From Vreelandella halophila (GTDB lineage: Bacteria; Pseudomonadota; Gammaproteobacteria; Pseudomonadales; Oleiphilaceae): a DNA stretch of 64,000 bases. The translations under genes and the position numbers were made by a program. This document shows positions 7,971-62,441 of this stretch, piece after piece. Each line of letters starts with the position of its first letter. The first letter of the stretch is position 1. The stretch covers positions 1-64,000 of the forward strand of contig NZ_WMEX01000008.1 in NCBI RefSeq assembly GCF_009856365.1, in the 5' to 3' direction. The notes beneath the pieces were generated by a model that ran no database searches, was not told the origin of the DNA, and worked only from the letters and a program-made list of their open reading frames with translations.

Positions 7971-8765
7971 ATGACAAAACCACTCCTTATCGGCAATTGG
8001 AAAATGAACGGCAGTCTGCAACTCAATCAGGAGTTGCTTCACCGGCTCATTCCAAAGCTGCAACAGCTTCAGAAACATATCGATATCGCCGTCTGTCCAC
8101 CATCCCCCTACCTGTTTCAGGTCTGCGATGCGCTCGCCTGCACAGGCATTGTTACGGGGGCCCAGACTGTGTCGGAGCATGCATCAGGCGCTCACACCGG
8201 CGAGGTCAGTGCCTCTATGCTCAGTGAACTGAAATGCCGGTATGCGCTGGTCGGCCATTCTGAACGTCGCCTTAAGTACGCAGAGTCCAGTACGGCGGTC
8301 GCCGCAAAGTTTGAAGCCGTGCAGAACGCCGGGATGATGCCGGTTCTCTGCGTTGGCGAAACCTTCGAGGAGCGCGAGGCTGGGCAGACCAGACAGGTCA
8401 TTGAGCAACAGCTGCAGGCCGTTATTGACCGGGTCGGTCTTGCCGGGTTCGAACAGGGGGTTGTTGCTTACGAGCCAGTCTGGGCCATTGGCACGGGTGA
8501 GGTCGCACAGGCCTTGCAGATCGAAAGCGTCCACCAGGCGATCCGGACTTTCCTGTCCTCCTGCGCACCCTCCAGAAAAGAGGATCCCAGTCAGCGACTG
8601 CGTATTGTTTACGGGGGCAGCGTCAACTCAAGCAACGCGGCAGAGATCTTCAACCTCGCCGAAGTTAACGGGGGCCTGATTGGGGGCGCCTCATTAAAGG
8701 CTGACGAATTCATTCAAATTTCTGAATCACTGGCAGAGACGGTAGATACCCTCGTCAGCGAATAA
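7971..8765 (+). CDS. tpiA: Triose-phosphate isomerase
   Basis: 264 residues. It interconverts dihydroxyacetone phosphate and glyceraldehyde 3-phosphate. All catalytic landmarks are visible: GNWKMN with Lys11, GHSERR with His96, YEPVWAIGTG with Glu168, and the phosphate-gripping YGGSVN near 214-219. The ATG follows a GGAGAACGAC stretch. It is the first gene of a tight pair with gapN (20-base gap) and has a GlpR-like operator 110 bases upstream. It therefore looks like a glycerol-dedicated isomerase. Whether the genome has a second tpiA elsewhere cannot be told from this window. Confidence 0.96.
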   Translation: MTKPLLIGNWKMNGSLQLNQELLHRLIPKLQQLQKHIDIAVCPPSPYLFQVCDALACTGIVTGAQTVSEHASGAHTGEVSASMLSELKCRYALVGHSERRLKYAESSTAVAAKFEAVQNAGMMPVLCVGETFEEREAGQTRQVIEQQLQAVIDRVGLAGFEQGVVAYEPVWAIGTGEVAQALQIESVHQAIRTFLSSCAPSRKEDPSQRLRIVYGGSVNSSNAAEIFNLAEVNGGLIGGASLKADEFIQISESLAETVDTLVSE

Positions 8766-18762: not shown

Positions 18763-20208
18763 ATGACTGATGAACTGCCCCCCTCATCGAACCCTGAAGA
18801 TGACCTCTCAACGCGATTCCCGACCGCCTATACCATTCTGTTTCTCCTCATCATCCTGATTGCCGCACTCACCTGGATCATTCCCGCGGGCCAGTATGAG
18901 CGCGCCATGAATGAAGAGATCGGGCGTGAAGTAGCAGTACCAGGCACTTACGAAACCGTTGAACCCAATCCCCAGGGTTTTGTCGATGTGATGCTCGCGC
19001 CCACGGCGGGCTTCTACGACCCCGACAGCTATGCAGCCAACGCCATCGACGTAGCCCTGTTCGTGCTCTTTCTCGGCGGTTTCCTGGGTGTAATGAACGC
19101 CACCGGTGCAATCGACACGGGCATCCGAAGCGCCATGCACCATCTGGAAGGCCATGAGATCTGGATGATACCCATACTCATGACGCTGTTCGCGCTGGGG
19201 GGAACCACCTACGGCATGGCCGAGGAAACCCTGGCGTTCTACGCCATCCTGATCCCGGTAATGATCTCGGCAGGCTATGACGCCGTCACCGGAGTCGCGG
19301 TGATTCTCATCGGCGCCGGCATCGGCGTGCTGGGATCGACCATCAATCCCTTTGCCACGGTCATCGCCTCCAACGCCGCCAATATTCCCTTTACTGACGG
19401 CATCGTACTGCGGTTCGTGCTGCTGGTCGGTGGCCTCATCATCTGTGCCGCGTACGTCATGCGGTATGCCCGGCGGGTTAAGGCCGACCCATCCCGCTCT
19501 GTGGTTGCCAGGCAGAAAGACGCCCACCGCAAGCTTTTCCTCCAGGGCCATGATGAGCTGGAGGATTTTGAACTCACACGCACCCAGCAGATTGCCCTGG
19601 CCATTTTCGCGCTTACGTTCATTGTGATGATCTGGGGGGTTTCCACCCAGGACTGGTGGATGGCCAGGATGGGCTCGCTTTTCTTTGGCTCCGCCATCGT
19701 CATCGGCATCGTCGCCCGGCTGGGCGAGAAAAAGCTCACCAGCAGTTTTGTTGACGGCGCACGGGACCTGCTGGGTGTCGCCCTGGTGGTTGGGCTGGCC
19801 CGCGGTATCGTGGTGATCATGGAGCAGGGCATGATCGCGGACACCATCCTGCACAGTGCGGAGACAACGCTGGGTGGGCTGCCGCAACTGGCCTTCATCA
19901 ACCTGATGTTCTGGATCGAGGTGGGCATGAGCTTCTTTGTACCGTCCTCGTCCGGCCTGGCTGTGCTTTCCATGCCCATCCTCGCACCGCTGGCGGACTT
20001 TGCCGGCGTGGGACGGGATCTGGTGGTGACGGCTTACCAGTCCGCCAACGGCCTGGTAAACCTGATCAACCCAACGTTTGCGGTGGTGGTTGGCGGCCTG
20101 GCCATAGGCCGCGTCTCCTACGACCGCTGGTTGGCATTCATATGGCCGCTGCTGCTGATACTGACGGTGTTCATCACCGCCGTGATCAGTATCGGCGCGC
20201 TTGTGTAA
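18763..20208 (+). CDS. YfcC-family basic amino acid antiporter (arginine/ornithine exchange)
   Basis: 481 residues from the ATG at 18763, which has a perfect AGGAGG ribosome site eight bases upstream; the longer frame from 18673 is rejected. A hydrophilic 25-residue head precedes about twelve transmembrane helices. [35 protein letters not shown] and [19 protein letters not shown] are typical of the YfcC/C4-dicarboxylate anaerobic carrier-like family, not of the APC-type ArcD. It is the first gene of the arginine deiminase operon, 23 bases before arcA, so arginine uptake coupled to ornithine export is the obvious role. The transport reaction is inferred from position. Confidence 0.85.
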
Positions 20209-20231
20209 TCCAAGGCAAGGGAGCATGCGAG

Positions 20232-21461
20232 ATGGCGGAAAACACTCTCGGGGTTCACTCTGAAACCGGCACGCTGAGGCAGGTGATTGTCTGCCGCCCC
20301 GGGCTGGCGCACCGGCGGCTGACCCCTTCCAACTGCGATGCATTGCTGTTTGACGACGTCTTCTGGGTCAAGCAGGCCCAGAAAGACCACGATGTCTTTA
20401 CCGGGGTCATGCGCGACCGCGGCGTGGAGGTGCTGGACGTCAATGAACTGCTGGCCGAAACCCTCGAAATCCCCGAGGCACGGGCCTGGATCCTGGACCA
20501 CCGGATCACCTGGAACCATATCGGGGTGGGCATGGTGTCCGACCTGCGCGCGTGGATGGACGAACTCCCCGGCCGGCCCCTGGCGGAATTCCTGATTGGC
20601 GGACTGGAAGTCGGCGACCTTCCTTTCGACCCTTCCGGGCTCTTTGGTAACCACCTTGGGCGCCACGGATTCGTGCTGCCACCGCTGCCCAACTTCCTGT
20701 TCACCCGGGATAACAGCGCCTGGATCTATAACGGGGTCACCCTGAACCCCATGTACTGGGCAGCGCGCAAACCGGAAACCCTGTTGATGAGCGCGATCTA
20801 CCAGTATCACCCGGCATTCGCGGGCAAGGTCAATGTGCACTGGGGGGATCCGCTCAAGGACCATGCCCTGGCGAGCCTGGAAGGCGGTGACGTCATGCCG
20901 GTCGGCAATGGCGTTGTCCTGGTGGGCATGGGGGAACGGTCCTCACCGCAGGCCATCGGCCAACTCTCCAAAGCCCTGTTCGACAGCGGAGCAGCGGAAC
21001 GCGTGATTGCCTGCCAGATTCCCAGGAGCCGCTCCGCCATGCACCTGGATACGGTGTTCACCTTCTGTGGCGGCAACGTGGTGACCAGCTTCAAGGAAGT
21101 CGCTGATGAAATGGTCTGTTATGAGCTGCGCCCCGGCAGTAACGGCAAACACCTGTCGTTTCACCAGGACTCCAGGCCCCTGTTTGATGTGGTCGCGGAC
21201 GCAATGGGTTACCGCTCCCTGGAGGTGATCCCCACCGGCGGTGACAGCCCGGCCGAACGCGAGCGGGAACAGTGGAACGACGGCAATAACGTGCTGGCGC
21301 TGAGCCCGGGCGTGGTCATTGGCTACGACCGCAACGACGACACCAATGCCGCGCTCCAGGTCGCCGGCATCGAGGTCCTCGCCATCCCCGGGGCGGAGCT
21401 GGGGCGAGGCAGGGGCGGCGGGCGCTGCATGAGCTGCCCGACCCTACGCGACCCCGTCTGA
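20232..21461 (+). CDS. arcA: Arginine deiminase
   Basis: 409 residues from the ATG at 20232. It hydrolyses arginine to citrulline and ammonia, the first step of the ADI pathway. Guanidino-group-modifying enzyme landmarks are present: [18 protein letters not shown] near 162-179, [11 protein letters not shown] near 217-227, [15 protein letters not shown] near 273-287, and the catalytic cysteine in GGGRCMSCP (Cys399) near the C-terminus. Length matches Pseudomonas ArcA. It lies between the antiporter and arcB with short gaps, on one transcript. Confidence 0.96.
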
Positions 21462-21479
21462 CCGAGAAGGAACAGAATC

Positions 21480-22481
21480 ATGGCTTTCAATCTCAAGAAC
21501 CAGCATTTCCTGACCCTGCGGGACTTCAGCCCCCGGGAGATCAGTTTTCTGCTCAAACTGTCCGCCGATCTCAAAACCGCCAAATACGCCGGCACCGAGG
21601 TGCCCCGGTTACAGGGCAAGGACATTGCCCTGATCTTTGAGAAAAACTCCACCCGGACCCGTGTCGGCTTTGAGGTCGCGGCCTTTGATCAAGGCGCCCG
21701 CGTCACCTACCTGGGGCCGACGGGTACCCACATCGGCCACAAGGAGTCCGTAAAGGACACCGCCCGGGTTCTGGGCCGGGTTTATGACGCCATCGAATAC
21801 CGGGGCTTCGGGCAGGAGGTTGTTGAGCAACTGGCCCAGTATGCCGGAGTGCCCGTCTACAATGGCCTGACCAATGAATTCCACCCAACCCAGATCCTGG
21901 CGGATTTCCTGACCATGCAGGAGAATGTGGAGAAGCCGTTGCGGGAGGTGGCGTTCGTATTCATCGGGGATGCCGCCAACAACATGGGCGACAGCCTGCT
22001 GATCGGCGCTGCCAAAATGGGCATGGATGTCCGGCTCTGTGCCCCCCAGGCCTGCTGGCCCGGGGAGGCCGTCCAGTCCGAGGCCCGGAGTATTGCCGGT
22101 GATACCGGTGCCAGGATCATGATCACCGAGGATGTTGACGCCGCCGTGGCGGGCGTGGACTTCGTCTACACGGACGTGTGGGTCTCCATGGGGGAGCCGA
22201 AGGAGAAATGGGCGGAGCGGATCAAGCTTCTGATGCCCTACCAGGTGAACGCCGCCCTGATGGAGAAAACCGGCAACCCCCGGGCAAGGTTCATGCACTG
22301 CCTGCCCGCTTTCCACAATACCGAAACCACTGTTGGGAAGGACATACAGAGCGAGTTCGGCATTGATGCCATGGAGGTGACTGAAGCGGTTTTTGAGAGC
22401 TCCGCCTCCATCGTGTTCGACCAGGCGGAAAACCGGATGCACACCATCAAGGCGGTGCTCGTCGCCACTCTTGGAACCTGA
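21480..22481 (+). CDS. arcB: Ornithine carbamoyltransferase, catabolic
   Basis: 333 residues. In the ADI pathway it splits citrulline with phosphate into ornithine and carbamoyl phosphate. The carbamoyl-phosphate-binding motif STRTR is at 57-61, [12 protein letters not shown] near 140-151, and the ornithine loop [12 protein letters not shown] near 270-281. The 330-residue length and the [13 protein letters not shown] extension are typical of catabolic ArcB enzymes rather than the shorter anabolic ArgF. It lies 18 bases after arcA with an AGAAGGA ribosome site. Confidence 0.95.
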
Positions 22482-22497
22482 ATAAGGGGAGCCTGAC

Positions 22498-23442
22498 ATG
22501 CTTGTGGTAGCAGCCCTCGGAGGCAACGCCCTGCTGCGGCGCGGCGAACCCCTGACAGCCCAGGCCCAGCGGGCCAACGTTAAGGTTGCCGCTGAATCAC
22601 TCGCCGGCATCGTCCGCGCCGGCCACCAGCTGGTCATCACCCACGGCAACGGTCCGCAGGTAGGACTTCTGGCACTTCAGGGCGCCGCCTACAGACCGGA
22701 TGAGGCTTACCCCCTGGATGTACTCGGCGCCGAAACGGAAGGCATGATCGGCTACATCATCGAACAGGAGCTGGAGAATGCCCTGGGCCACGACCGGGCC
22801 GTGGCCACGCTGCTGACCCAGGTACTGGTGGACAGGAACGACCCGGCCTTCCAGAACCCCACGAAATTCGTGGGACCCGTGTACGACAGGAAAGAAGCAG
22901 AGACCCGCGCCGAGGCGGCTGGCTGGCAGATCGCCCAGGACGGCGACAAGTGGCGGCGGGTCGTCCCCTCCCCCAGCCCCCTCGAAATCCCGGACACCCG
23001 GGTGCTCGAGCTGTTGCTGAAACAAGGCGTGGTGGTCATCTGCGCTGGGGGTGGCGGCATTCCCATCCTGCGCCGGGATGACGGCAGCATGATTGGCGTT
23101 GAAGCCGTGATCGACAAGGATGCCGCCAGCGCCCTGCTGGCCCGCCAGCTGGGGGCCGATGCCCTGCTTCTGCTCACCGATGTGGACGCCATCTACCGGG
23201 ATTTCGGCAAGGATACCGCCGCCCCCATCCACGAACTGACCCTGGACGAAGCCCGCCAGCTGGACCTGCCCGCCGGCTCCATGGGCCCCAAGCTCGCTGC
23301 AGCCTGCGATTTTGCTGGAAGCGGCGGCCTCAGTGGTATCGGCCGGCTGGAAGACGCAGAGGCGATGCTGGATCGCCAGGCGGGCACCCGCATCAGCATC
23401 CACTCCCTGAACCAGGAGGTAGCGGACTCCCACCCATGCTGA
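22498..23442 (+). CDS. arcC: Carbamate kinase
   Basis: 314 residues. It transfers phosphate from carbamoyl phosphate to ADP, giving ATP, ammonia and carbon dioxide, and is the energy-yielding step of the ADI pathway. Amino-acid-kinase signatures: VVAALGGNALLRRGEPL at the start, ITHGNGPQVGLLALQ near 44-58, VVICAGGGGIPI near 177-188, EAVIDKDAASALLARQLGAD near 202-220, and GSMGPKLAAACDFA near 260-273. It lies 16 bases after arcB. Its 3' end overlaps mtfA by seven bases. Confidence 0.95.
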   Translation: MLVVAALGGNALLRRGEPLTAQAQRANVKVAAESLAGIVRAGHQLVITHGNGPQVGLLALQGAAYRPDEAYPLDVLGAETEGMIGYIIEQELENALGHDRAVATLLTQVLVDRNDPAFQNPTKFVGPVYDRKEAETRAEAAGWQIAQDGDKWRRVVPSPSPLEIPDTRVLELLLKQGVVVICAGGGGIPILRRDDGSMIGVEAVIDKDAASALLARQLGADALLLLTDVDAIYRDFGKDTAAPIHELTLDEARQLDLPAGSMGPKLAAACDFAGSGGLSGIGRLEDAEAMLDRQAGTRISIHSLNQEVADSHPC

Positions 23443-51571: not shown

Positions 51572-51587
51572 TGGCATAGCGTTTGCT
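51572..51587 (+). promoter_or_regulatory. Sigma-54-type promoter for allophanate hydrolase
   Basis: TGGCAT-N5-TTGCT has the invariant GG (51573-51574) and GC (51585-51586) in the right spacing for sigma-54 -24/-12 recognition. The predicted start point, about 12 bases after the GC, is near 51598, inside the 22-base palindrome. No clear NtrC-like enhancer was found upstream of this copy. Confidence 0.6.
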
Positions 51588-51590
51588 CAA

Positions 51591-51612
51591 GCCAACTTGT
51601 ATACAAGTTGGC
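51591..51612. promoter_or_regulatory. Perfect 22-bp palindrome, probable GntR operator
   Basis: GCCAACTTGTA and its exact reverse complement TACAAGTTGGC abut with no spacer. The core TTGTATACAA is of the type bound by FadR/VanR-group GntR regulators, and a FadR-group GntR gene lies 1.9 kb downstream. It covers the predicted sigma-54 start point and ends 16 bases before the allophanate hydrolase ATG, an ideal repressor position. Confidence 0.75.
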
Positions 51613-51628
51613 AACCAAGAGACTCGTC

Positions 51629-53425
51629 ATGGCTTCAACAACCGGATGGACCATCAGGGACTGGCAGGAGGCATACCGTAACGGCCAGTCGCCCCAGGCG
51701 CTTCTGGAAGCGCTTCTGGAGGCCGAGGACCCACGCGACCCCGCCTGGATCAGCCTGGCGAGCCGGGAACAGCTGGCCGCCCAAATCGCGACCCTTTCCC
51801 CGGAGCAACCACTCTACGGGGTGCCGTTTGCGATCAAGGACAACATTGACGCGTTCGGTTTCGAGACCACCGCAGCCTGCACGGAATACGGCTATCGGCC
51901 CGAGTGCGATGCGGAAGCGGTCAAGGCATTGAAAGAAGCGGGCGCCGTACTCATCGGCAAGACCAACCTCGACCAGTTCGCCACTGGGCTTGTCGGCACA
52001 CGCTCTCCCTGGGGCGCCGTCCCCAATACCTTCGATGATGCCGTCATGGCGGGAGGGTCGAGTTCCGGGTCCGCCGCAATCGTGGCCCGCGGCACCGTCC
52101 CCTTCTCCCTGGGTACGGACACTGCCGGCTCCGGACGTGTACCGGCAGGACTGAATAACATCGTGGGCCTCAAGCCAACCCGGGGGGCCATCAGCACCCG
52201 CGGCGTGGTACCGGCGTGCCGGAGTCTGGACTGTGTCTCGGTTTTCGCCCTGACCACGGCTGATGCCGGCGTAATCCAGAGCTGCATGGAAGCGGGCGAG
52301 AACACTGACTCCTTTGGCTGCTCCCGCCTGGAATACGGATCCAACCCCGACCGTGCGCTGAGGGCGCCGGGGCCGGTCCGACGCCTGGCCATTCCCCGGG
52401 ATCCGGAATGGTATGGCGACGACCAGCAGCGCGAAGCATGGGAACAGGCGCTGAGCCAGTGGCGCTCCCTGGGCGTTGAGGTGGTGGAGCGGGACTTCAC
52501 AACGCTCTACGCCATGGCCGAACTCCTTTATGAAGGCCCCTGGATCGCGGAGCGTCACGCCGCAATCAGCACCTTCATGGAGGCGAACGCCGCGGCCATG
52601 AACCCGGTGGTCCGGGACATCATCCGCCGGGCGGAGGGGTTCACGGCTACCGATGCGTTCAACGGCCTCTACCGGCAGCACGAGCTGCGCCATGCCCTGG
52701 ACCAAGAGCTGGCGGAAATCGACGCCCTGCTGGTGCCGACCGCGCCCATCACCCCTTCCATCAGTGCGGTGGAGGCCGACCCTGTGCACCTGAACGCCCG
52801 CCTTGGCCGCTACACCAACTTCGTCAACCTGGCTGACCTTTGCGCGCTGGCGTTACCGGCCGGGTTCCGCGGAGACGGCCTGCCTTTCGGCATCACCCTG
52901 ATCAGTGGCGCCTGGCGTGACCGGGATCTTCAGGAACTGGGCGCGCAATGGCTCAACCACGCCCCGACACCACTCGGCGCCACCGGACGGGAACGGCCAC
53001 CGGAGACGCCAGCAGAACCCGATGTTGGCACGGTCCAGGTAACCGTGGTGGGCGCCCATCTCAGCGGTATGCCACTCAATGACCAACTGACCGGGCGCGG
53101 TGCACGGCTGCTGCAAAGCACAACAACCGCCCCCTGTTACCGGCTGTATGCCCTGGCCGGCACCACCCCGCCCAAACCCGGACTGCGACGGGATACCACC
53201 GGTAAGGCCCTGGAAGTCGAGGTATGGACGATGCCCACAGAGCACTTCGGTTCCTTTGTGGAACTGATTCCCCACCCCCTGGGCATCGGCACCGTTGAAC
53301 TGGCGGACGGCACCTGGACCAAGGGCTTCATCTGTGAGGAAGCAGGGCTCGAAGGGGCCACGGACATCACGCATCTTGGGGGCTGGCGCGCCTATATCCA
53401 GTCTCTCCGGAAACAACAGGGATAG
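51629..53425 (+). CDS. atzF: Allophanate hydrolase
   Basis: 598 residues from the ATG at 51629; an in-frame TTG at 51608 lies within the palindrome and is rejected. It hydrolyses allophanate to ammonia and carbon dioxide. The N-terminal amidase-signature domain (about 1-450) has the Ser-cisSer-Lys triad: YGVPFAIKDNIDAFG (Lys), MAGGSSSGSAAIVARG and GTDTAGSGRVPAGLNN. The C-terminal domain (about 470-598), with GAHLSGMPLNDQLTGRG and GSFVELIPHPLGIGTVEL, is specific to allophanate hydrolases and sets it apart from ordinary amidases. It supplies the last step of the guanidine/urea carboxylase route encoded 5 kb downstream. It has its own sigma-54-like promoter and operator. Confidence 0.94.
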   Translation: MASTTGWTIRDWQEAYRNGQSPQALLEALLEAEDPRDPAWISLASREQLAAQIATLSPEQPLYGVPFAIKDNIDAFGFETTAACTEYGYRPECDAEAVKALKEAGAVLIGKTNLDQFATGLVGTRSPWGAVPNTFDDAVMAGGSSSGSAAIVARGTVPFSLGTDTAGSGRVPAGLNNIVGLKPTRGAISTRGVVPACRSLDCVSVFALTTADAGVIQSCMEAGENTDSFGCSRLEYGSNPDRALRAPGPVRRLAIPRDPEWYGDDQQREAWEQALSQWRSLGVEVVERDFTTLYAMAELLYEGPWIAERHAAISTFMEANAAAMNPVVRDIIRRAEGFTATDAFNGLYRQHELRHALDQELAEIDALLVPTAPITPSISAVEADPVHLNARLGRYTNFVNLADLCALALPAGFRGDGLPFGITLISGAWRDRDLQELGAQWLNHAPTPLGATGRERPPETPAEPDVGTVQVTVVGAHLSGMPLNDQLTGRGARLLQSTTTAPCYRLYALAGTTPPKPGLRRDTTGKALEVEVWTMPTEHFGSFVELIPHPLGIGTVELADGTWTKGFICEEAGLEGATDITHLGGWRAYIQSLRKQQG

Positions 53426-53441
53426 AGAAAGGGGTAACGCC

Positions 53442-53522
53442 ATGTTTTCGAAGGTTCTTGTAGCCAACCGGGGCGAGACTTCGGTGCGGATCATAGGCTC
53501 CCACCCGTACCGCTGGTGTTAA
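53442..53522 (+). pseudogene. Truncated biotin carboxylase N-terminus (relic of a urea/guanidine carboxylase gene)
   Basis: A 26-codon frame with a good ribosome site reads MFSKVLVANRGETSVRII and then unrelated GSHPYRWC before a stop. The first 18 residues are the universal start of biotin carboxylases, parallel to MFNKVLIANRGAIARRIT at the start of the intact carboxylase at 58842, but different enough not to be a recent copy. It begins 16 bases after allophanate hydrolase, exactly where a carboxylase gene would sit in an ancestral pair. The break falls right at the GntR gene start (overlap of its GTG alternative). Confidence 0.75.
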
Positions 53523-53527
53523 CCCCA

Positions 53528-54241
53528 ATGGCGGAACCCAGCGCCCCCACACAGCGCAAAAGCATGGCCGACCGGATCTATCAGGCGCTCAAGGAGGATA
53601 TCTTTGAGTTCCGCCTGATCCCGGGCGACAAGTTCAGTGAATCCGACATCGCGCAGCGGCTTTCGGCCAGCCGCACGCCGGTGCGCGAGGCGCTGTACCG
53701 GCTGGAACGCGAAGGCTATGTGGACGTTCTCTTCCGCAGTGGCTGGCAGATACGGCAGCTGGATTTCAAGCAGATCGAGGAGCTCTACGACCTGCGCATC
53801 ACCCTTGAGCGGGCCGCGATGCACAAGATCTGCCGCCTGGATAAGCCGCCACCCGCCCTGCGGCTGCTCAATGACATCTGGAACCCGGATGCCCCCTCCG
53901 AGAGAGCTTTCGGCAGCACCGTGCGTGCCCTCGATGAGAGCTTCCACTGTGAGCTGGTGGCGGCGCCCGGCAACGACGAAATGACCCAGGTGCACCAACG
54001 GATAACGGACCGGCTGCGCATCGTGCGCCGGCTTGATTTCACCCGGCCCGACCGGATCGATGCCACTTACCGGGAACACGCCGAGATCCTGCAGGCACTG
54101 ATCGCCAACAATCCCGGTGAGGCCGCGGAGAAAATGACCGCCCATATCCGTACCAGCCAGGAGGCCGTCAAGGGCATCTCACTGGAACGCATCCGGGAGG
54201 TCTCGCGACAGCCTCGGCGACAGGACCCAGCCCACCGTTAG
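53528..54241 (+). CDS. GntR-family regulator (FadR/FCD type) of the guanidine locus
   Basis: 237 residues from the ATG at 53528 (an in-frame GTG at 53516 is possible). The N-terminal winged helix-turn-helix spans residues about 15-75: RIYQALKEDIFEFRLIPGD, then SESDIAQRLSASRTPVREALYRLEREGYV. The C-terminal FCD effector domain is all-helical and begins ELYDLRITLERAAMHKI; DESFHCELV and REHAEILQAL carry the aspartate/histidine positions that bind metal in this family. It lies between allophanate hydrolase and the carboxylase operon. A perfect palindrome over the allophanate hydrolase promoter is its probable operator. The inducer is unknown; guanidine, carboxyguanidine and allophanate are candidates. 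Confidence 0.88.
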   Translation: MAEPSAPTQRKSMADRIYQALKEDIFEFRLIPGDKFSESDIAQRLSASRTPVREALYRLEREGYVDVLFRSGWQIRQLDFKQIEELYDLRITLERAAMHKICRLDKPPPALRLLNDIWNPDAPSERAFGSTVRALDESFHCELVAAPGNDEMTQVHQRITDRLRIVRRLDFTRPDRIDATYREHAEILQALIANNPGEAAEKMTAHIRTSQEAVKGISLERIREVSRQPRRQDPAHR

Positions 54242-54258
54242 GCGCACCGCTCCCTACC

Positions 54259-54275
54259 TGCCCCCAACCGGGGCA
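54259..54275. promoter_or_regulatory. NtrC-like site, distal
   Basis: TGCCCCC-AAC-CGGGGCA has the 7-3-7 layout of the NtrC site (TGCACCA-N3-TGGTGCA), with perfect symmetry of TGCCCC/GGGGCA. Its centre lies about 30 bases, near three helical turns, upstream of the second site and about 130 bases before the predicted start point. Confidence 0.5.
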
Positions 54276-54288
54276 CAGCACTCTCACC

Positions 54289-54305
54289 TGCACCAACCTG
54301 GCGCA
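54289..54305. promoter_or_regulatory. NtrC-like site, proximal
   Basis: TGCACCA-ACC-TGGCGCA differs from the enterobacterial NtrC consensus arms (TGCACCA/TGGTGCA) at a single position. It is centred about 100 bases before the predicted sigma-54 start point, the usual enhancer distance. Confidence 0.65.
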
Positions 54306-54370
54306 CCCGAGTCCAGACCACGGCAGCATCAGATCCCCCAGGCTACTGTCATGAAAGGCTTTTCCATAGG

Positions 54371-54386
54371 TGGCACTGTGGTTGCA
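54371..54386 (+). promoter_or_regulatory. Sigma-54 promoter of the guanidine operon
   Basis: TGGCAC-TGTGG-TTGCA matches the sigma-54 -24/-12 consensus (TGGCAC-N5-TTGCA) at every defined base. Transcription would start near 54397, giving a leader of about 205 bases that contains the riboswitch. Two NtrC-like sites lie upstream. Confidence 0.82.
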
Positions 54387-54459
54387 CTCTAACAGACAGG
54401 AATCAGATGACTGAGTGGCGCTGTGCTGCCCGGTCCGTTCCAAGACAATCTGAAATGGA

Positions 54460-54550
54460 CAGCTAGGGTTCCGGCCACACCGACGTGGCGTCTGGTCCGA
54501 GAGCGGTCGACCTTCTGAAGGTTACACGGCGGGACAAAAGCCCGGGAGGA
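54460..54550 (+). ncRNA. Guanidine-I (ykkC) riboswitch
   Basis: The conserved blocks of the ykkC class are present in order: CTAGGGTTCCGG (54463-54474), GGTCCGAGAG (54494-54503), and the 3' block ACACGGCGGGAC, AAAAGC, CCGGGAG (54524-54548). These are the conserved nucleotides of the guanidine-sensing subtype; downstream genes for guanidine uptake, carboxylation and deimination agree. In the expression platform, GGGAGGA (54544-54550) is complementary to TCCTCCC (54574-54580), whose CCTCC can also pair with the ribosome site AGGAGG (54592-54597). This suggests control of translation start, although which fold ligand favours was not determined. Confidence 0.93.
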
Positions 54551-54603
54551 TACAGGCTGAACAGCCATCTGATTCCTCCCAGTTAACCGTCAGGAGGCTC
54601 GAC

Positions 54604-55659
54604 ATGCGATCCAAGCTGCTTACCGCACTCCCCTTTATTGCCGCCGCCGGCATGCTGCCCGGCACTGCCCTCGCGAAAGACGAATTCAGTGTCTGCTGGT
54701 CCATCTATGTGGGCTGGATGCCCTGGGACTACGGCGATGCCGAAGGCATTGTCGACAAGTGGGCGGACAAGTACGACATTGAAATCGACGTGGTCCAGAT
54801 CAACGACTACATCGAGTCCATCAACCAGTACACCTCCGGCCGCTTTGACGGCTGCACCATGACCAACATGGACGCGCTCACCATCCCCGCCTCCGGCGGC
54901 GTTGATTCCACTGCGCTTGTAGTGGGTGACTTCTCCGACGGCAATGACGGCATCGTCATGAAAAACGAGGATGACCTGGCCGAGATCGAGGGCAAGCGCG
55001 TCAACCTGGTGGAACTCTCTGTCTCCCACTATCTGCTGGCACGGGGCCTGGAGTCCGTAGGACTGTCCGAGCGTGATATCGAGGTCGTCAACACCGCCGA
55101 CGCGGACATTGTCTCCGCCTTCGCCACGCCCGACGTCAGTTCCGTGGTTACCTGGAACCCGCAGCTCAGCTCAGTGCTGGAACAGCCCAATGCCAACCTC
55201 GTCTTCGACTCTTCCCAGATCCCGGGCGAGATCATGGACCTGATGGTGGTCAACACGGAAACCCTGGAAGCGAACCCCAAATTCGGCAAGGCCCTGACCG
55301 GCGCCTGGTACGAGATCATGGCTCGCATGCAGGGCGATGACGAAACGGCCATTGAGGCCCGTACCCATATGGCGAATGCCGCGGGCACCGATCTTGAGGG
55401 CTACGAGGCCCAGCTGGAGGCGACCAACATGTTCCATGACCCCGCCGAAGCGGTGGATTTCACACGCAGTGACCAGCTGCTGGAAACCATGCAGAACGTG
55501 GCCGAGTTCTCCTTCCGCCACGGCCTGCTCGGCCAGGGTGCGCCCAGCGCGGAAGCCGTGGGCATCGAGACACCGTCCGGGACCTACGGCAACGAGGGCA
55601 ACGTGAACCTGCGCTTTACGGACAAGTACATGCAGCAGGCCGCGGACGGGGAACTCTGA
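54604..55659 (+). CDS. ABC transporter substrate-binding protein, guanidine (annotated urea) uptake
   Basis: 351 residues. Signal peptide about 1-24 (LLTALPFIAAAGMLPGTALA). The mature protein is of the NMT1/SsuA-like class: FSVCWSIYVGWMPWDYG near 28-44, GCTMTNMDALTIPASGGVDSTAL near 80-102 and NLVELSVSHYLLARGLESVG near 137-156. Proteins of this exact type are found beside urea-carboxylase-type genes and are usually labelled urea-binding. With a guanidine riboswitch directly upstream, guanidine is the more likely ligand. The ATG has an AGGAGG site that may be masked by the riboswitch. A strong hairpin follows the gene. Confidence 0.88.
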   Translation: MRSKLLTALPFIAAAGMLPGTALAKDEFSVCWSIYVGWMPWDYGDAEGIVDKWADKYDIEIDVVQINDYIESINQYTSGRFDGCTMTNMDALTIPASGGVDSTALVVGDFSDGNDGIVMKNEDDLAEIEGKRVNLVELSVSHYLLARGLESVGLSERDIEVVNTADADIVSAFATPDVSSVVTWNPQLSSVLEQPNANLVFDSSQIPGEIMDLMVVNTETLEANPKFGKALTGAWYEIMARMQGDDETAIEARTHMANAAGTDLEGYEAQLEATNMFHDPAEAVDFTRSDQLLETMQNVAEFSFRHGLLGQGAPSAEAVGIETPSGTYGNEGNVNLRFTDKYMQQAADGEL

Positions 55660-55680
55660 GCCCATTCCGCCCACACGCAA

Positions 55681-55700
55681 GCCGGCTCCACGGAGCCGGC
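55681..55700 (+). terminator. Intercistronic hairpin after the binding-protein gene
   Basis: GCCGGCTC pairs perfectly with GAGCCGGC around CACG. It has no T tract and lies between the binding-protein and permease genes. Such hairpins commonly stabilise the upstream mRNA or attenuate read-through so that the binding protein is made in excess over the membrane parts. Confidence 0.6.
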
Positions 55701-55727
55701 CCGTATTCACGCTGACGGGCTGATCCC

Positions 55728-56546
55728 ATGAAGAAACTGATCAACCGGAAACCCAATCGCTACGCCCGATGGTTCCTGGGGTTCCTGCCGTTTGCGCTAC
55801 TTCTGGCCATCTACATCGGAGCCTCCTCGGCGCGCCTGGCGGAAAACCCGGATGACCCCCTGCTGCCCTCACTGACCCAGATGGCTGAGGCGGTCGAACG
55901 CATGGCGTTTGAACCCAGCAAGCGCTCCGGCGACTACCTGCTGCTCCAGGACACCCTGGCAAGCCTTCAGAGGCTTGGTATCGGCATCGGTGTTTCCGCC
56001 GCTCTGGCCCTGATATTCGGTATCGCCAACGGCGCCATTCCCTATGTGCGAGCCACGCTCTCGCCTTTGGTCGTGGGCATCTCCCTGGTGCCGCCAATGG
56101 CCATCCTGCCGATCCTGTTCATCGTGTTCGGGCTGCAGGAACTGGCCAAGGTCATGCTGATCATCATCGGCGTGACGCCCTTCATGATCCGCGACATGCA
56201 GCAGCGGACCCTGGAGATCCCCGAGGAGCAGATCATCAAGATGCAGACCCTGGGGGCCAACACCTGGCAGACCATCACGCGGCTGATGCTGCCCCAGATC
56301 ATGCCCCGGCTGCTGGCCACCACGCGCCTCGCGCTTGGCACCGCCTGGCTGTTCCTGATCGCCGCCGAGGCCATCGCCGCTACCGAGGGGCTGGGCTATC
56401 GCATCTTCCTGGTGCGGCGCTACCTCTCCATGGACGTGATCCTGCCCTATGTCCTCTGGATCACGCTGCTGGCTCTGGTGATCGACTTCCTGCTCAACCG
56501 CTGGTCCAGGTGGCGCTATCCCTGGTTCCACGCAACCGGTCAATAA
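55728..56546 (+). CDS. ABC transporter permease, guanidine (annotated urea) uptake
   Basis: 272 residues with six hydrophobic helices (first at about 16-33). It belongs to the SsuC/TauC-type permease family. The EAA cytoplasmic loop that contacts the ATPase reads IIKMQTLGANTWQTITRLMLPQI near 167-189. The N-terminus is longer than in TauC, with a periplasmic stretch of about 45 residues after TM1. It sits between binding-protein and ATPase genes and 12 bases before the latter. Confidence 0.9.
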   Translation: MKKLINRKPNRYARWFLGFLPFALLLAIYIGASSARLAENPDDPLLPSLTQMAEAVERMAFEPSKRSGDYLLLQDTLASLQRLGIGIGVSAALALIFGIANGAIPYVRATLSPLVVGISLVPPMAILPILFIVFGLQELAKVMLIIIGVTPFMIRDMQQRTLEIPEEQIIKMQTLGANTWQTITRLMLPQIMPRLLATTRLALGTAWLFLIAAEAIAATEGLGYRIFLVRRYLSMDVILPYVLWITLLALVIDFLLNRWSRWRYPWFHATGQ

Positions 56547-56557
56547 GGGGCGCAACC

Positions 56558-57373
56558 ATGGCCATGATCGAGATCCGCAACCTGTGGAAGGAATTCGGCG
56601 ACGACGTGGTGCTGGAACGGCTCAACGCCAGCATCGAGGCGCGCGAGTTCGTCACCGTGGTGGGCGCCTCCGGCTGCGGCAAGACCACCTTCCTGAAAAT
56701 GCTGCTGGGCACTGAAACACCCACGCGTGGTGAGCTGTTGCTGGATGGTAAGCCGATACCGGAGGAACCCGACGCCACACGCGGCATCGTCTTCCAGCGC
56801 TACTCCGTCATGCCCCATCTGGACGCCACCGGCAACGTCATGCTCGCCGGCGAGCTGGAGGCCAGCCGCTGGCTCGGCCGTGTCTTCGGTGCCAACCGGC
56901 GCCGGCTCCGCGATGACGCCGTGGCCATGCTGAAAGAGGTGGGCCTGGAACACGCCCTCGACAAGTACCCCCACGAACTCTCCGGCGGCATGCAGCAGCG
57001 CCTGGCGCTCGCCCAGGCCCTGATCAAGAAGCCCCGGATCCTGCTGCTGGACGAACCCTTCGGGGCGCTGGACCCGGGTATCCGGCGGGACATGCACGAA
57101 CTGGTCAGTCGCCTGTGGCGTGAGCAGAAGCTTACGGTCTTCATGATCACGCATGACATCGAGGAAGGCTTCGCCCTCGGCACCCGTCTCTGGGTCTTCG
57201 ACAAGGAGCGCCTGGACCCCCAGGCCCCCGAAGCCTACGGCGCGCGCATCACCTACGACCTCGCGGTGGGCCGCGACGACACCGGCGTTCTGGAAGACAT
57301 CAACGCCGACGTGAATGCGACCTCCCGGACCATTGATAACCATAACCCGCAACCGACAGGAGACCACTCATGA
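56558..57373 (+). CDS. ABC transporter ATP-binding protein, guanidine (annotated urea) uptake
   Basis: 271 residues from the ATG at 56558 (AAGGGG ribosome site); the longer frame from 56510 overlaps the permease gene. Walker [17 protein letters not shown] near 34-49, signature [17 protein letters not shown] near 140-156, Walker [15 protein letters not shown] near 162-175, and the switch histidine in [13 protein letters not shown] near 198-210. It energises the permease. The C-terminal 35 residues are an acidic, Asn/Asp-rich tail. Its stop overlaps the start of the next gene by four bases. Confidence 0.92.
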
Positions 57374-58116
57374 GTCGACGCCTTTACGACTACACCCTGC
57401 CCGGAGGCCATCACTGGTCTTTCCGCATGCGCCGCAACACCGGCCTGCGCCTGACGGACCTGGAAGGCGGCGGCAACCTCGCCCTGCTCGTATTCAACCC
57501 GGAAATGCTCATGGAGCGCTACAACGCGCCCGACACCATGAAGGCCCAGGAAACCTTCCGGCTGACCCAGGGCCACTGCCTCTATTCCGACATGGGGCGC
57601 TGTATCGCCTCCATCGTTGAGGACGACTTCGGCGGCCACGACTCCGCCTGCGGCACCCTGACGCGCGGCGCCTGCTACGAGCGCTTTGGCCGCTGGTCCT
57701 TCCAGGAGTACATGAATGAATGGTGTCTGAGTGGCGAGGAAAGCTTCCTCACGGAACTGGCCAAGTACGGCCTGGGTGAGCGCGACCTGCACGCCAACCT
57801 CAACCTGTTCAGCCGGGTGGAAACCGACGAGGCCGGCAATATGCGCTACGTGGACAGCCACAACCGCCCCGGCGCCAGCGTAACCCTGCGCTTCGACATG
57901 GATGCCCTGGTCATCGCCGCGACCAGCCCACACCCGCTGAACCCGGCCACCGGGTACCCGAAGAAGCCCATCCAGGTGGAATTCCTGAAGACGGACCCGG
58001 TCACGCCCGACGACGAATGCGTCAACGCCCACGACACCAGCCGCCGGGCCATGGAAAACACCCGACTCTACTACCTGGACGACCCTGTCCGCCTGACCGA
58101 CGCAGGAGGTGCCTGA
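57370..58116 (+). CDS. cgdA: Carboxyguanidine deiminase subunit (DUF1989, urea carboxylase-associated protein)
   Basis: 248 residues. It begins at an ATG overlapping the ATPase stop (ATGA). DUF1989 features: [29 protein letters not shown] near 15-43 (in parts [29 protein letters not shown]), [14 protein letters not shown] near 73-86, [11 protein letters not shown] near 91-101 and NLNLFSRV near 143-150. Two DUF1989 proteins next to such carboxylases have been shown to form the deiminase that converts carboxyguanidine to allophanate and ammonia. Cys and His positions in HDSACG and MGRC are probable metal ligands. Which of the pair is called A or B is by gene order here. Confidence 0.82.
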
Positions 58117-58757
58117 TGCTGACCGAAAGCTTCCGCCAGACCCATGATGCCCGTTACAGCCAGAAAATCGGTGCCGGCGACTACTTCATGCGCACCGTAA
58201 AGGCGGGCTCAACCGTCCGTATTACCGACGTGGACGGCAACGAAGCCGCCGACACGCTGTTCTACAGCGCCCTGGACCCGGCCGAGCGCTACAGCGCCAA
58301 CGACACCGTGCGTGAACAGGGCAACGTCTACCTGGGCACCGGCAGCGTGCTGCGCTCCAACCGCAACAACCCGATGCTTGAGATCATCGCCGACACCTGC
58401 GGCCGCCACGACACCCTGGGCGGTGCCTGCTCCTCGGAGAGCAACACCGTGCGCTATGCCCACGACCGCCGCTGCATGCACTCGTGCCGCGACAACTGGA
58501 TGAACGCCATCCAGGAGAACGAGCACTTCGGGGTCACCAAGCGCGACATCGCGCACAACATCAATTTCTTCATGAACGTGCCCATTACGCCGGAAGGCGG
58601 CCTGAGTTTTGCCGACGGCATCTCTGGGCCGGGCAAGTACGTGGAGATGAAGGCGCTGATGGATGTGATCGTCCTGATCTCCAACTGCCCGCAGCTGAAC
58701 AACCCCTGCAGTGGCTTTGATCCAACGCCACTGGAGATTGCGGTCTGGGACAACTGA
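58116..58757 (+). CDS. cgdB: Carboxyguanidine deiminase subunit (DUF1989, urea carboxylase-associated protein)
   Basis: 213 residues from the ATG at 58116, which shares one base with the previous stop and has a perfect AGGAGG site. DUF1989 layout like its neighbour: [27 protein letters not shown] near 26-52 (in parts [25 protein letters not shown]), [21 protein letters not shown] near 91-111, [10 protein letters not shown] near 117-126 and INFFMNVPI near 149-157. The Cys/His-rich stretch probably binds metal. It pairs with the 248-residue protein to deiminate carboxyguanidine. The next gene starts 84 bases later. Confidence 0.82.
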
Positions 58758-58841
58758 AGAACCGTTGAACGCCACCCGGGGACGACCTCGAAGGGGCCGG
58801 AACAACCAGGCGGGACGACCCGCAAAAGCGAGAACAGGATC

Positions 58842-61800
58842 ATGTTCAACAAGGTACTGATCGCCAACCGCGGCGCCATCGCCCGCCGCATCACCCGCAC
58901 ACTGCGCGAGCTGGGCGTTACCAGTGTCGCCGTCTACGCCGAAGCCGACGCGGACTCCCTGCATGTCCGCGAGGCCGACGAAGCCTGGCCCCTGGGTGAC
59001 GGCTCCGCCACGGAAACCTACCTCAACCAGGACAAGCTCTTCCGCATCATCGAAGACGCAAGCATCGACGCCGTCCACCCCGGCTACGGCTTCCTCAGCG
59101 AGAACCCCGACTTCGTCGAACGCTGCGAAGCCGCGGGTGTCGCCTTTATCGGCCCACGCCCGCACCAGATGACCGAATTCGGCCTCAAGCACACCGCCCG
59201 CGAAATCGCCGAAAAGGCCGAGGTGCCCCTGCTCCCCGGCACCGGCCTGCTGGAGGACAAAGCCAGCGCCCTCAAAGCTGCCGACGACATCGGCTACCCC
59301 GTCATGCTCAAGAGCTCCGCCGGGGGTGGCGGCATTGGCATGCAGATCTGCCACGACAGCGAGACGCTGGATAAGGCCTGGGACAGCGTGCGTCGTCTGA
59401 GCGCCAATAACTTCGCCAACGACAGCGTCTTCCTGGAGAAGTACATCGAGCACGCCCGGCACATCGAGGTGCAGGTGTTCGGTGACGGCAGCGGAAAGGC
59501 CGTGGCCCTGGGCGAACGGGACTGTTCCGCCCAGCGTCGCCACCAGAAGGTCCTCGAAGAGGCGCCCGCCCCCAACCTGCCGGACGCCGTCCGCGCCACC
59601 CTGAATGAGACCGCACCGCGCCTGATCTCGGCGGTAAACTACCGCAATGCGGGCACGGTCGAGTTCATTCTGGACCAGGCCACCAACCGCTTCTACTTCC
59701 TGGAGATGAACACCCGGCTCCAGGTGGAGCACGGGGCGACCGAGCAGGTCTACGGCGTGGATCTTGTCGAGTGGATGGTCAGGCTGGCCGCTGGCGAGTT
59801 GGGTGACATCGAGCAGCTTGCCGCCAAGCTTAAACCAACCGGCCATGCCATCCAGGCCCGCCTCTACGCGGAAGATCCGAATAAGGACTTCCAGCCCTGC
59901 GCCGGGCTTCTGACCCATGTTGAATTCCCGGACGCGGATGGCAGCCGGCGCCGCATTGACCACTGGATCGAGGCCGGTCTGGAGGTGTCGCCCCTCTATG
60001 ACCCGATGCTGGCCAAGGTCATCGTGCACGAAGCCGACAGGGACCAGGCCCTCACCGCCCTGAGGGACACTCTGGATCAGACCATTGTCGAGGGCATCGA
60101 GACCAATCGGGAATACGTCGCGGCAATCCTTGGCGACGCCGTGTTTGCCGATGGCCGAATGACCACGCGCTACCTGAACGGCTTCAGCTATCAGCCCGCC
60201 ACCATCGATGTACTGGCCAGCGGCACCATGACCACGGTCCAGGACTACCCGGGACGCATCGGTTACTGGCCGGTGGGTATCCCGCCCTCCGGACCCATGG
60301 ACAACCTTAGCTTCCGCCTGGCCAACCGTCTGCTGGGCAATGACGAAGGCGCCGCCGGGCTGGAACTGACGCTGAACGGCCCCACCCTGCGCTTCAACAG
60401 CGCCACCACTATCGCACTGACCGGCGCGGACCTGAACGCCACCCTGGACGGCGAAACCCTGCCACTGAACCGCACCGTCCCGGTCACGGCGGGCCAGACC
60501 CTCAAGCTGGGCAAGGTGACCGGCAACGGCGCCCGCGCCTACCTGGCGATCGCCGGGGGCATCCAGTGCCAGCCCCACCTGGGCTCGCGCAGCACCTTTA
60601 CGCTCGGCCAGTTCGGCGGCCATGGCGGGCGGGCGCTGCGCACCGGCGATGTGCTGCATCTGGATGCAGACGCTTCCGCGCCCGAGGCGATGAACCTGCC
60701 GGGGGCCATGACGCCCGGGCTCACCACCCACTGGACCCTGCGCTGCACCTATGGGCCCCACGGCGCGCCGGAGTTCTTCACCGAAGCGGACATGGAGACC
60801 TTCTTCAGCGCGGACTGGCAGATCCACTACAACTCCAACCGTACGGGCATCCGCCTGGTTGGCCCCAAGCCCGAGTGGGCGCGGCGGGATGGCGGCGAGG
60901 CGGGCATGCATCCCTCCAACATCCACGACAACGCCTACGCCATCGGCACGGTCGACTTTACCGGCGACATGCCGGTGATACTGGGCCCGGACGGCCCCTC
61001 GCTGGGCGGCTTCGTGTGCCCGGCGACGGTCATCCAGACCGACCTCTGGAAACTGGGCCAGCTCAAGGCCGGTGACACTGTGCGATTCGAGCCTGTCAGC
61101 CTGGACGATGCCGACCGTCTCACCGAGGCCCGCAACCGGAGCATCGCGGCGCTCGAGGACCAGGCACCGGCAGTCACACCGCAGCGCCCGGCCAGCCCCA
61201 TCCTCCAGTCACTGAGCGCCGACGAAGCCGGCGTGGCCGTCACCTATCGCCCCTGCGGCGACCGCTACCTGCTGGTGGAATACGGGCCCATCGAGCTGGA
61301 CCTTCGCCTGCGCTTCCGCGCCCACGCCCTGATGCTCTGGCTCAAGGAGCAAGACCTGGCGGGTGTGCTGGAACTCACACCCGGCATCCGTTCGCTGCAG
61401 ATCCACTTTGATCCGCTGGTCATGGATCGTCAGCGGCTTCTGCGGATCCTGAAGGAGGCGGAGGACCACCTCCAGCGCCAGAAGGAACAGAAGGTCGCCT
61501 CGCGCATCGTCTGGCTGCCCCTGTCCTGGGACGACGAGGCCTGCCACGAGGCCATCCGCAAGTACATGCAATCGGTGCGCAGCGACGCGCCCTGGTGCCC
61601 CAGCAACCTTGAATTCATCCGGCGCATCAACGGCCTCGACAGCATCGATGACGTCAAGCAGATCCTGTTCTCGGCGAGCTACGTGGTCATGGGCCTGGGC
61701 GACGTCTACCTGGGCGCCCCCGTCGCCACGCCCTATGACCCACGTCAGCGCCTGGTCACCACCAAGTACAACCCGGCACGGACCTGGACGGCGGAAAACT

Positions 61801-62441
61801 CCGTGGGCATCGGCGGCTCCTACCTGTGCGTCTACGGCATGGAAGGCCCCGGCGGCTACCAGTTCGTGGGCCGCACCCTGCAGGTCTGGAACCGTTACCG
61901 GCGCACGCGCCACTTCACCGAGCCGCACCTGCTGCGCTTCTTCGACCAGATCCGTTTCTACGAGGTCAGCTCGGAGGAACTGCAGCAGATCCGGCGGGAT
62001 CACCCCAAGGGCGACTTTCCGCTGCAGACCGAGGAAACCACCTTCGATCTGGACGAGTACCAGCAGTTCCTGGAGGCCAACGCCGAAAGCATCCGGACCT
62101 TCACCGAAGCCCGCAACCAGGCCTTCGAGGAGGAGCTCGAACGCTGGGTCGCCAGCGGCGCCATCAACTACGAATCCCAGCAGGACCTGGGCGAGCACGA
62201 GGCGGATGAGCTGCCTGAGGGCACCCCGGTGGAATCACCGACCGCCGGCAACATCTGGCAGCTGCTGATCAGTGAGGGAGACGCCGTGGAAGAAGGTCAG
62301 GTGGTGGCGATCCTCGAGTCCATGAAAATGGAGATCGAGGTAACGGCGCCCGAGGCCGGCAAGATCACCCACATTACCCGCCAGGAGGGACAGCAGATTG
62401 ATGCTGGGCAGGCGGTCATGGTGGTTGGCACCGGGTTCTGA
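58842..62441 (+). CDS. Guanidine carboxylase (biotin-dependent, urea carboxylase family)
   Basis: 1199 residues. Biotin carboxylase domain about 1-450: ANRGAIARRITRTLRELGV, GFLSENPDF, the ATP glycine loop SSAGGGGIGMQI near 165-176, EVQVFGDGSG and EMNTRLQVEHGATEQVYG. KipA/AHS2-like carboxyltransferase domain about 460-760 (GYWPVGIPPSGPMDNLSFRL; MHPSNIHDNAYAIGTVDFTG), KipI/AHS1-like domain about 780-1000, and a biotinyl domain at the end with ESMKMEIEV (biotin on Lys1162). It carboxylates guanidine with ATP and bicarbonate to carboxyguanidine. Urea is the alternative, but the riboswitch and DUF1989 partners favour guanidine. It is the last gene of the operon and lacks the fused allophanate hydrolase of fungal urea amidolyase. 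Confidence 0.88.
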   Translation: MFNKVLIANRGAIARRITRTLRELGVTSVAVYAEADADSLHVREADEAWPLGDGSATETYLNQDKLFRIIEDASIDAVHPGYGFLSENPDFVERCEAAGVAFIGPRPHQMTEFGLKHTAREIAEKAEVPLLPGTGLLEDKASALKAADDIGYPVMLKSSAGGGGIGMQICHDSETLDKAWDSVRRLSANNFANDSVFLEKYIEHARHIEVQVFGDGSGKAVALGERDCSAQRRHQKVLEEAPAPNLPDAVRATLNETAPRLISAVNYRNAGTVEFILDQATNRFYFLEMNTRLQVEHGATEQVYGVDLVEWMVRLAAGELGDIEQLAAKLKPTGHAIQARLYAEDPNKDFQPCAGLLTHVEFPDADGSRRRIDHWIEAGLEVSPLYDPMLAKVIVHEADRDQALTALRDTLDQTIVEGIETNREYVAAILGDAVFADGRMTTRYLNGFSYQPATIDVLASGTMTTVQDYPGRIGYWPVGIPPSGPMDNLSFRLANRLLGNDEGAAGLELTLNGPTLRFNSATTIALTGADLNATLDGETLPLNRTVPVTAGQTLKLGKVTGNGARAYLAIAGGIQCQPHLGSRSTFTLGQFGGHGGRALRTGDVLHLDADASAPEAMNLPGAMTPGLTTHWTLRCTYGPHGAPEFFTEADMETFFSADWQIHYNSNRTGIRLVGPKPEWARRDGGEAGMHPSNIHDNAYAIGTVDFTGDMPVILGPDGPSLGGFVCPATVIQTDLWKLGQLKAGDTVRFEPVSLDDADRLTEARNRSIAALEDQAPAVTPQRPASPILQSLSADEAGVAVTYRPCGDRYLLVEYGPIELDLRLRFRAHALMLWLKEQDLAGVLELTPGIRSLQIHFDPLVMDRQRLLRILKEAEDHLQRQKEQKVASRIVWLPLSWDDEACHEAIRKYMQSVRSDAPWCPSNLEFIRRINGLDSIDDVKQILFSASYVVMGLGDVYLGAPVATPYDPRQRLVTTKYNPARTWTAENSVGIGGSYLCVYGMEGPGGYQFVGRTLQVWNRYRRTRHFTEPHLLRFFDQIRFYEVSSEELQQIRRDHPKGDFPLQTEETTFDLDEYQQFLEANAESIRTFTEARNQAFEEELERWVASGAINYESQQDLGEHEADELPEGTPVESPTAGNIWQLLISEGDAVEEGQVVAILESMKMEIEVTAPEAGKITHITRQEGQQIDAGQAVMVVGTGF

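Follow-up and report, generated by a model that had tools for sequence, protein, structure and literature searches.

In the guanidine operon of Vreelandella boliviensis, as described in the accessible parts of the report (PMC12508155), a guanidine-I (Gd-I) riboswitch precedes the operon, a guanidine-II (Gd-II) riboswitch precedes the guanidine carboxylase gene gca, and the allophanate hydrolase gene atzF belongs to the same riboswitch-controlled set. A different arrangement is given for Ectopseudomonas guguanensis G3 (PMC13296017), where atzF and the urea carboxylase gene uca lie by a GntR gene and a separate carboxylase operon with guanidine-I is located at a different place in the genome; the passages of that paper available to us carry no remark on a shared allophanate hydrolase. 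Here we describe a locus at positions 51591 to 62441 of a 64,000-nucleotide stretch of the Vreelandella halophila genome (contig NZ_WMEX01000008.1, positions 1 to 64,000), the whole of which is referred to below as the window. Very probably it is a guanidine assimilation locus whose AtzF stems from a shared urea amidolyase operon, the uca of which has been deleted so that this operon now serves guanidine only.

All genes and aptamers of 51591-62441 are on the + strand and the features occur in the following order:

51591..51612, no strand assigned: perfect 22-bp palindrome, self-reverse-complementary and 16 bases before the atzF ATG; putative GntR operator
51629..53425, +: atzF, allophanate hydrolase of the last step, urea-operon type (NF006043, 801 bits, cut-off 487; Pfam Amidase and AH_C)
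53442..53522, +: urea carboxylase relic, with homology to the 5' end of the gene up to about 53494, followed by unrelated bases and a stop
53528..54241, +: GntR/FCD transcription regulator (Pfam GntR and FCD)
54452..54550, +: Gd-I aptamer (Rfam RF00442, 89.4 bits)
54604..55659, +: substrate-binding protein of an ATP-binding cassette (ABC) importer (TIGR03427, 551 bits, cut-off 334)
55728..56546, +: ABC permease (PF00528, 68.7 bits)
56558..57373, +: ABC ATPase (PF00005, 108.6 bits)
57370..58116, +: cgdA, carboxyguanidine deiminase subunit, DUF1989 (TIGR03425, 283 bits, cut-off 206; PF09347)
58116..58757, +: cgdB, carboxyguanidine deiminase subunit, DUF1989 (TIGR03424, 316 bits, cut-off 285; PF09347)
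58774..58823, +: Gd-II aptamer before gca (Rfam RF01068, 41.3 bits)
58842..62441, +: gca, guanidine carboxylase, a biotin carboxylase of 1199 residues with the family name urea carboxylase (TIGR02712, 1821 bits, cut-off 1304)

AtzF, the binding protein, both DUF1989 proteins and the carboxylase scored over curated NCBIfam cut-offs; the GntR/FCD regulator, the permease and the ATPase were assigned by general Pfam domain only. AtzF carries the amidase and AH_C domains (PF01425 and PF21986) and also matches TIGR02713 (782 bits, cut-off 511), and CgdAB represents the paired DUF1989 subunits of both curated types (TIGR03425 and TIGR03424, with PF09347 in each). An initial annotation of the sequence had proposed genes for import, carboxylation, deimination by two DUF1989 proteins and allophanate hydrolysis, all of which were found where it placed them; its list did not contain the Gd-II aptamer, the uca relic at 53442-53522 or the 22-bp palindrome.

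The history of the upstream unit is best seen from the closest loci, those of Halovibrio salipaludis YL5-2 (genome G003, loci L043 and L122), 'Vreelandella utahensis' DSM 3051 (G001, L044 and L058) and Halospina denitrificans DSM 15505 (G004, L045 and L059). All three organisms are assigned to the genus of the window and their carboxylases are 93-94% identical to the window Gca. G003 and G001 share the order atzF - uca (Asn) - gntR - Gd-I - importer - cgdA - cgdB - Gd-II - gca (Asp), the residues in brackets being those of a signature column considered below, and uca encodes a second full carboxylase with 51% identity to Gca and Asn in that column. The window shows the same order minus the full uca. 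From 53442, directly after atzF, 48 of 53 bases are shared with the start of uca, which is intact and located at this position in L043 and L044, and tblastn yields 85% over uca residues 1-20 (E 2e-8). Two of the five base changes alter the conserved start motif, from EIAVR to ETSVR, and for the roughly 30 bases between the relic and gntR (53495-53527) no convincing source was found in uca, the sister locus or the window. Since the start of uca has been kept in place and the rest is gone, the urea carboxylase gene has most likely been lost through a deletion of about 3.6 kb. The window genome contains one full carboxylase of the uca/gca kind, with no second full one found in the assembly. A urease alpha match was found neither in this genome nor in G001 and G003; Halospina has one, together with a single full carboxylase, and the 19 kb examined there contain no uca and no gntR.

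Both carboxylase kinds occur in one stretch in only two of 80 named gca loci (L058 and L122), to which the window relic adds a third. Around atzF, 15 relative loci were compared: ten carry a full uca beside atzF, one a cut uca, and four are without it. The cut gene (L052:13026-13277, from G015, of another genus of the family) lies between atzF and gntR and joins uca residues 1-47 in frame to residues 1176-1208; this deletion is internal to uca and differs from that of the window, and G015 holds gca elsewhere. In L056, L057, L139, L141 and L143 gntR directly follows atzF with no uca trace detected by tblastn, and the atzF-gntR stretch of L143 starts with MLKKVLI, similar by eye to the start of a carboxylase.

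In a tree of 52 atzF proteins, a 100/99 branch separates 36 gca-linked ones from that of the window, which lies with those of urea operons; the window atzF is therefore a urea-operon gene by descent. Excluded from the tree were L058, L059 and L122, which are copies of L044, L045 and L043, and 36 of the 38 named loci with atzF after gca were entered, L099 and L100 having failed the length or E-value filter (the L099 piece is 60% identical to the window atzF and thus urea-like); L123 sits on a very long branch and is placed with uncertainty. With an atzF of urea type and a uca scar, the guanidine route therefore seems to run on an allophanate hydrolase that was first shared and then inherited.

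A wider survey covered 117 related genomes, 29 of which carry an atzF of the urea type and 19 one of the other type. The line between the two types was drawn where scores drop from 614 to 548 bits, and G077, G109 and G114, the three genomes that score lowest within the urea type, sit on the urea side of the tree. Uca is present in 16 of the 29, 11 of which also have gca, and the 13 without uca all have gca, at a strict limit (E 1e-250, six candidates scored per genome) which, together with contig ends, may hide genes. The sole uca genome outside the urea-type set is G002, of the same genus and 68% complete, which yielded no full atzF match. Every one of the 43 gca genomes carries atzF, of the urea type in 24 and of the other type in 19, and none carries both. 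In the 80 named gca loci, atzF follows gca in 38 (L126 also has one before it), lies upstream only in three, which are the three close relatives, and is absent from the stretch examined in 39, some of them on short contigs. When 19 of those 39 genomes were searched, atzF was found elsewhere in 18, directly before the start of a uca-type carboxylase in 14 (judged from the first ~1.4 kb), directly before gntR in three and beside neither in one.

The substrate of the remaining carboxylase can be approached through a published signature. According to the methods section of PMC11410670, Asp at Kluyveromyces lactis position 1584 is required and Asp at 1330 tells guanidine from urea carboxylases. Alignment to 3va7 places D705 of the window enzyme opposite N1330 and D954 opposite D1584, such that both guanidine-type Asp residues are present; the K. 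lactis numbering offset of 593 was read off the two chains of K. lactis included in that alignment. By this signature, as that section gives it, the enzyme is assigned as a guanidine carboxylase, its substrate preference being predicted. These two residues, together with the Gd-I aptamer, support the view of the initial annotation that genes commonly named for urea carboxylation and urea transport are probably for guanidine. Among the first 14 carboxylases compared, column 705 is Asp in all four that adjoin cgdAB and Asn in all ten that adjoin atzF without cgdAB between; 123 columns separate the two groups in these 14 sequences, and column 705 is therefore a clade label as well as the published specificity residue. 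Asp occupies the signature column in 79 of the 80 named gca loci.

Two riboswitch aptamers point in the same direction. The Gd-I aptamer matches RF00442 over the full model (1-107) with 89.4 bits against a cut-off of 63 (E 1e-14), so that the guanidine-I riboswitch suspected near 54440-54610 passed the covariance-model check, and it is the single match in the 3.34-Mb genome (136 of 136 first-look candidates scored). The Gd-II aptamer, between cgdB and the carboxylase gene, shows the two ACGR-loop hairpins of its class and matches the full RF01068 model (1-48) with 41.3 bits against a cut-off of 32; it is the single match found in the genome, 150 of 647 first-look candidates having been scored. 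AtzF, at 51629-53425, precedes Gd-I, and no further guanidine-I or, among the candidates scored, guanidine-II match was found in the window or the genome. The initial division of the locus into two units with different local control thus stands but is incomplete, there being three control elements, a putative GntR operator, Gd-I and Gd-II. The upstream unit appears to be what is left of a urea amidolyase operon and not one half of a guanidine operon.

Among the 78 named loci that have cgdB, 52 show a Gd-II-like double hairpin before gca; in random stretches of 110 bases the pattern turned up in 5 of 1600. Rfam backs Gd-II before gca in all six pattern-positive loci scored in one batch; L113, also pattern-positive, scored under the cut-off, and no Gd-II was returned for the pattern-negative loci L085, L093, L118 and L126. 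L130, pattern-negative before gca, carries Gd-II farther upstream (8443-8487). Uniqueness of the Gd-I and Gd-II pair was considered and dropped, the pairing being already in print and the double hairpin common among the named loci.

When the leader is folded freely, the aptamer strand GUCGACCUUCUGA pairs with the Shine-Dalgarno sequence of the binding-protein gene and hides it in a helix of 13 pairs; imposing the aptamer on the fold exposes this sequence only partly. No terminator-like site was found in 54200-54620, and the folding model suggests that Gd-I may act as a translational switch. The helix is identical in four close sequences, which therefore yield no covariation evidence; a shuffle control of the Shine-Dalgarno pairing came out in its favour in many loci, though not in every one, and across 57 loci pairing with the own Shine-Dalgarno was slightly longer than with those of other loci (mean 9.4 versus 8.2). 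Forcing P1 and P2 left the Gd-II fold unaltered, and therefore no Gd-II mechanism is read from folding. Upstream of atzF and of Gd-I, a simple scan gave no promoter-like site.

Some observations on guanidine aptamers in other organisms may be added. In Halospina about 330 extra bases with long inverted repeats lie between cgdB and gca (L045:7699-8116), by eye resembling an inserted small mobile repeat, and Gd-II, behind this stretch, scores 28.8 bits, below the cut-off. Five Alcanivorax and Alloalcanivorax loci (L062, L063, L065, L067 and L068) have an Rfam-supported Gd-II before gca, near 9930-9980, in contrast to PMC9788540, whose accessible parts restrict Guanidine-II to A. dieselolei and A. 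xenomutans, upstream of a SugE-like gene. Marinobacter L085 carries two Gd-I aptamers, one before cgdAB-gca and one by ABC genes (8464-8573 and 19661-19774), and is without Gd-II before gca; several other Marinobacter loci are similar by pattern.

The third control element is the perfect 22-bp palindrome GCCAACTTGTATACAAGTTGGC at 51591-51612. Its 12-bp core CTTGTATACAAG occurs at six sites in eight genomes (one in that of the window, two each in G001 and G003 and one in G016), every one of them upstream of atzF; the exact core was not found in Halospina, G051, G068 or G015. Of 16 loci, comprising the window and 15 relatives, 11 have the pattern TTGTATACAA no more than 500 bases ahead of atzF. 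The gntR that follows uca in both sister genomes is the same gene as the window gntR. The palindrome is likely to be a local operator to which GntR would bind. Since the first steps would answer to guanidine and the last would not, the simplest GntR inducer would be one common to the urea and guanidine routes, namely their common intermediate allophanate.

Guanidine would thus enter through the ABC importer and be carboxylated by Gca, in a reaction using ATP and biotin, CgdAB would deiminate the carboxylated product to allophanate, and AtzF would hydrolyse the latter to ammonia and CO2. Guanidine itself would turn on the importer and the deiminase via Gd-I and the carboxylase via Gd-II. AtzF would stand outside guanidine riboswitch control, as part of an adjoining atzF-uca-gntR operon shared by the guanidine route, and the uca deletion in this organism would leave the atzF operon to serve guanidine only, with the GntR repressor probably acting at the palindrome 16 bases before atzF.

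The family names TIGR02712 and TIGR03427 both include urea, and atzF and gntR look derived from a urea operon, all of which would suit a urea carboxylase in a locus that degrades urea. This is hardly credible for a locus with two guanidine aptamers, the Asp signature and CgdAB, the more so as a separate Asn-type carboxylase fills the urea place in two sisters. Nor does it seem at all probable that the stretch at 53442 is a small functional leader, or a fragment of a different biotin carboxylase, instead of a uca relic. It has an ATG with a purine-rich stretch upstream and a stop after 26 codons, and could be translated, but it sits where two sisters have an intact uca and agrees with that gene at 48 of 53 bases, the conserved start motif residues are changed and a different internal uca deletion is found at the same place in L052.

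Two further possibilities leave the enzymes as assigned and concern their use. According to the accessible parts of PMC12508155, the Gd-II before gca in V. boliviensis binds methylguanidine as well as guanidine, and the main substrate could be methylguanidine or another substituted guanidine, with guanidine as an intermediate. However, nothing like mgdH or mgdL directly follows gca, after which the next + strand open reading frame of at least 100 amino acids starts at 62852 (the genome elsewhere was not searched), and we consider this improbable. We hold it to be similarly unlikely that the locus mainly detoxifies guanidine instead of feeding on it: exporters are also found under guanidine riboswitches (PMC12186494, in the accessible portion of that review), but the gene that comes first after Gd-I is that of an importer binding protein, and the route ends in ammonia.

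Several observations weigh against a guanidine-only locus with a locally controlled, inherited AtzF. L113 (10001-13588), which has Gd-I, cgdAB and atzF, encodes a gca-like carboxylase whose signature column holds Asn; L113 is a possible exception to the residue rule, which does not hold without fail. The assembly of the window genome, in 19 contigs, reaches 96.9% completeness, and a urease or uca could have been missed. G051, G068 and G015 are without the exact palindrome core although gntR adjoins atzF, and a reversed control pattern occurred once in the window genome and once in G068. L046, L051 and L054 have a half-site only of TTGTATACAA, and L045 and L050 have neither, the latter despite having gntR. 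Finally, the contrast in gca between urea-type-atzF genomes without uca (13 of 13) and with it (11 of 16) is weak (Fisher p 0.048), and the genomes are related and not independent. The preferred reading, that the atzF operon now serves guanidine alone, predicts growth on guanidine and none on urea.

The sister clusters pair a single allophanate hydrolase with two carboxylases that one residue distinguishes in the literature, which helps to explain the confusion between urea and guanidine annotations. The window strain resembles a natural single mutant, in which the guanidine enzyme is retained and the urea enzyme deleted, with no urease alpha found; set beside Halovibrio salipaludis on urea and on guanidine, it would allow the two functions to be told apart in vivo without engineering. 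In addition, the locus offers a setting for finding out which signal the GntR of bacterial urea amidolyase operons responds to. More tentatively, and with considerable doubt, the guanidine pathway in this marine and halophilic group of Gammaproteobacteria may often lack a last enzyme of its own and draw on the urea amidolyase operon; repeated uca loss might then turn that operon into a one-enzyme guanidine accessory, with GntR as an allophanate sensor and the final step induced by the intermediate rather than by guanidine.

Elsewhere in the window, at 20142-23442, genes for arginine deiminase, ornithine carbamoyltransferase and an amino-acid kinase lie in a row, an apparent arginine deiminase pathway cluster.

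The pathway, the riboswitch layout and an operon with both Gd-I and Gd-II are already known from the sources cited, in the parts consulted. No account of a shared allophanate hydrolase or of uca loss was found in the open-licence papers searched and, as far as we have seen within that literature, the borrowed allophanate hydrolase, the uca scar and the local operator are apparently undescribed. The window shares with the V. boliviensis operon, as given in the accessible parts of its report, Gd-I at the front, Gd-II between cgdB and gca, the ABC importer, cgdA and cgdB, gca and atzF. In V. boliviensis, however, atzF closes the operon, with mgdH and mgdL between gca and atzF, whereas the window atzF is upstream, outside both riboswitches, of urea type and accompanied by a uca relic and gntR. 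The loci of Raoultella, Klebsiella and Erwinia, as far as the review passages describe them (PMC12186494), likewise have Gd-I over the importer and deiminase and Gd-II over the carboxylase, but there carboxylase and atzF are both under Gd-II, which the window atzF is not. The window locus is thus neither a riboswitch-controlled guanidine operon that includes atzF, since this gene lies before Gd-I, nor a methylguanidine-extended operon of the V. boliviensis type, as no mgdH or mgdL adjoins gca within the locus, nor an intact urea amidolyase operon, its uca being a relic. With the atzF-uca-gntR operon of G001, G003 and other relatives it has in common atzF, gntR and the palindrome before atzF, and it differs from that operon in that uca is cut to a scar and the unit sits directly before the guanidine operon.

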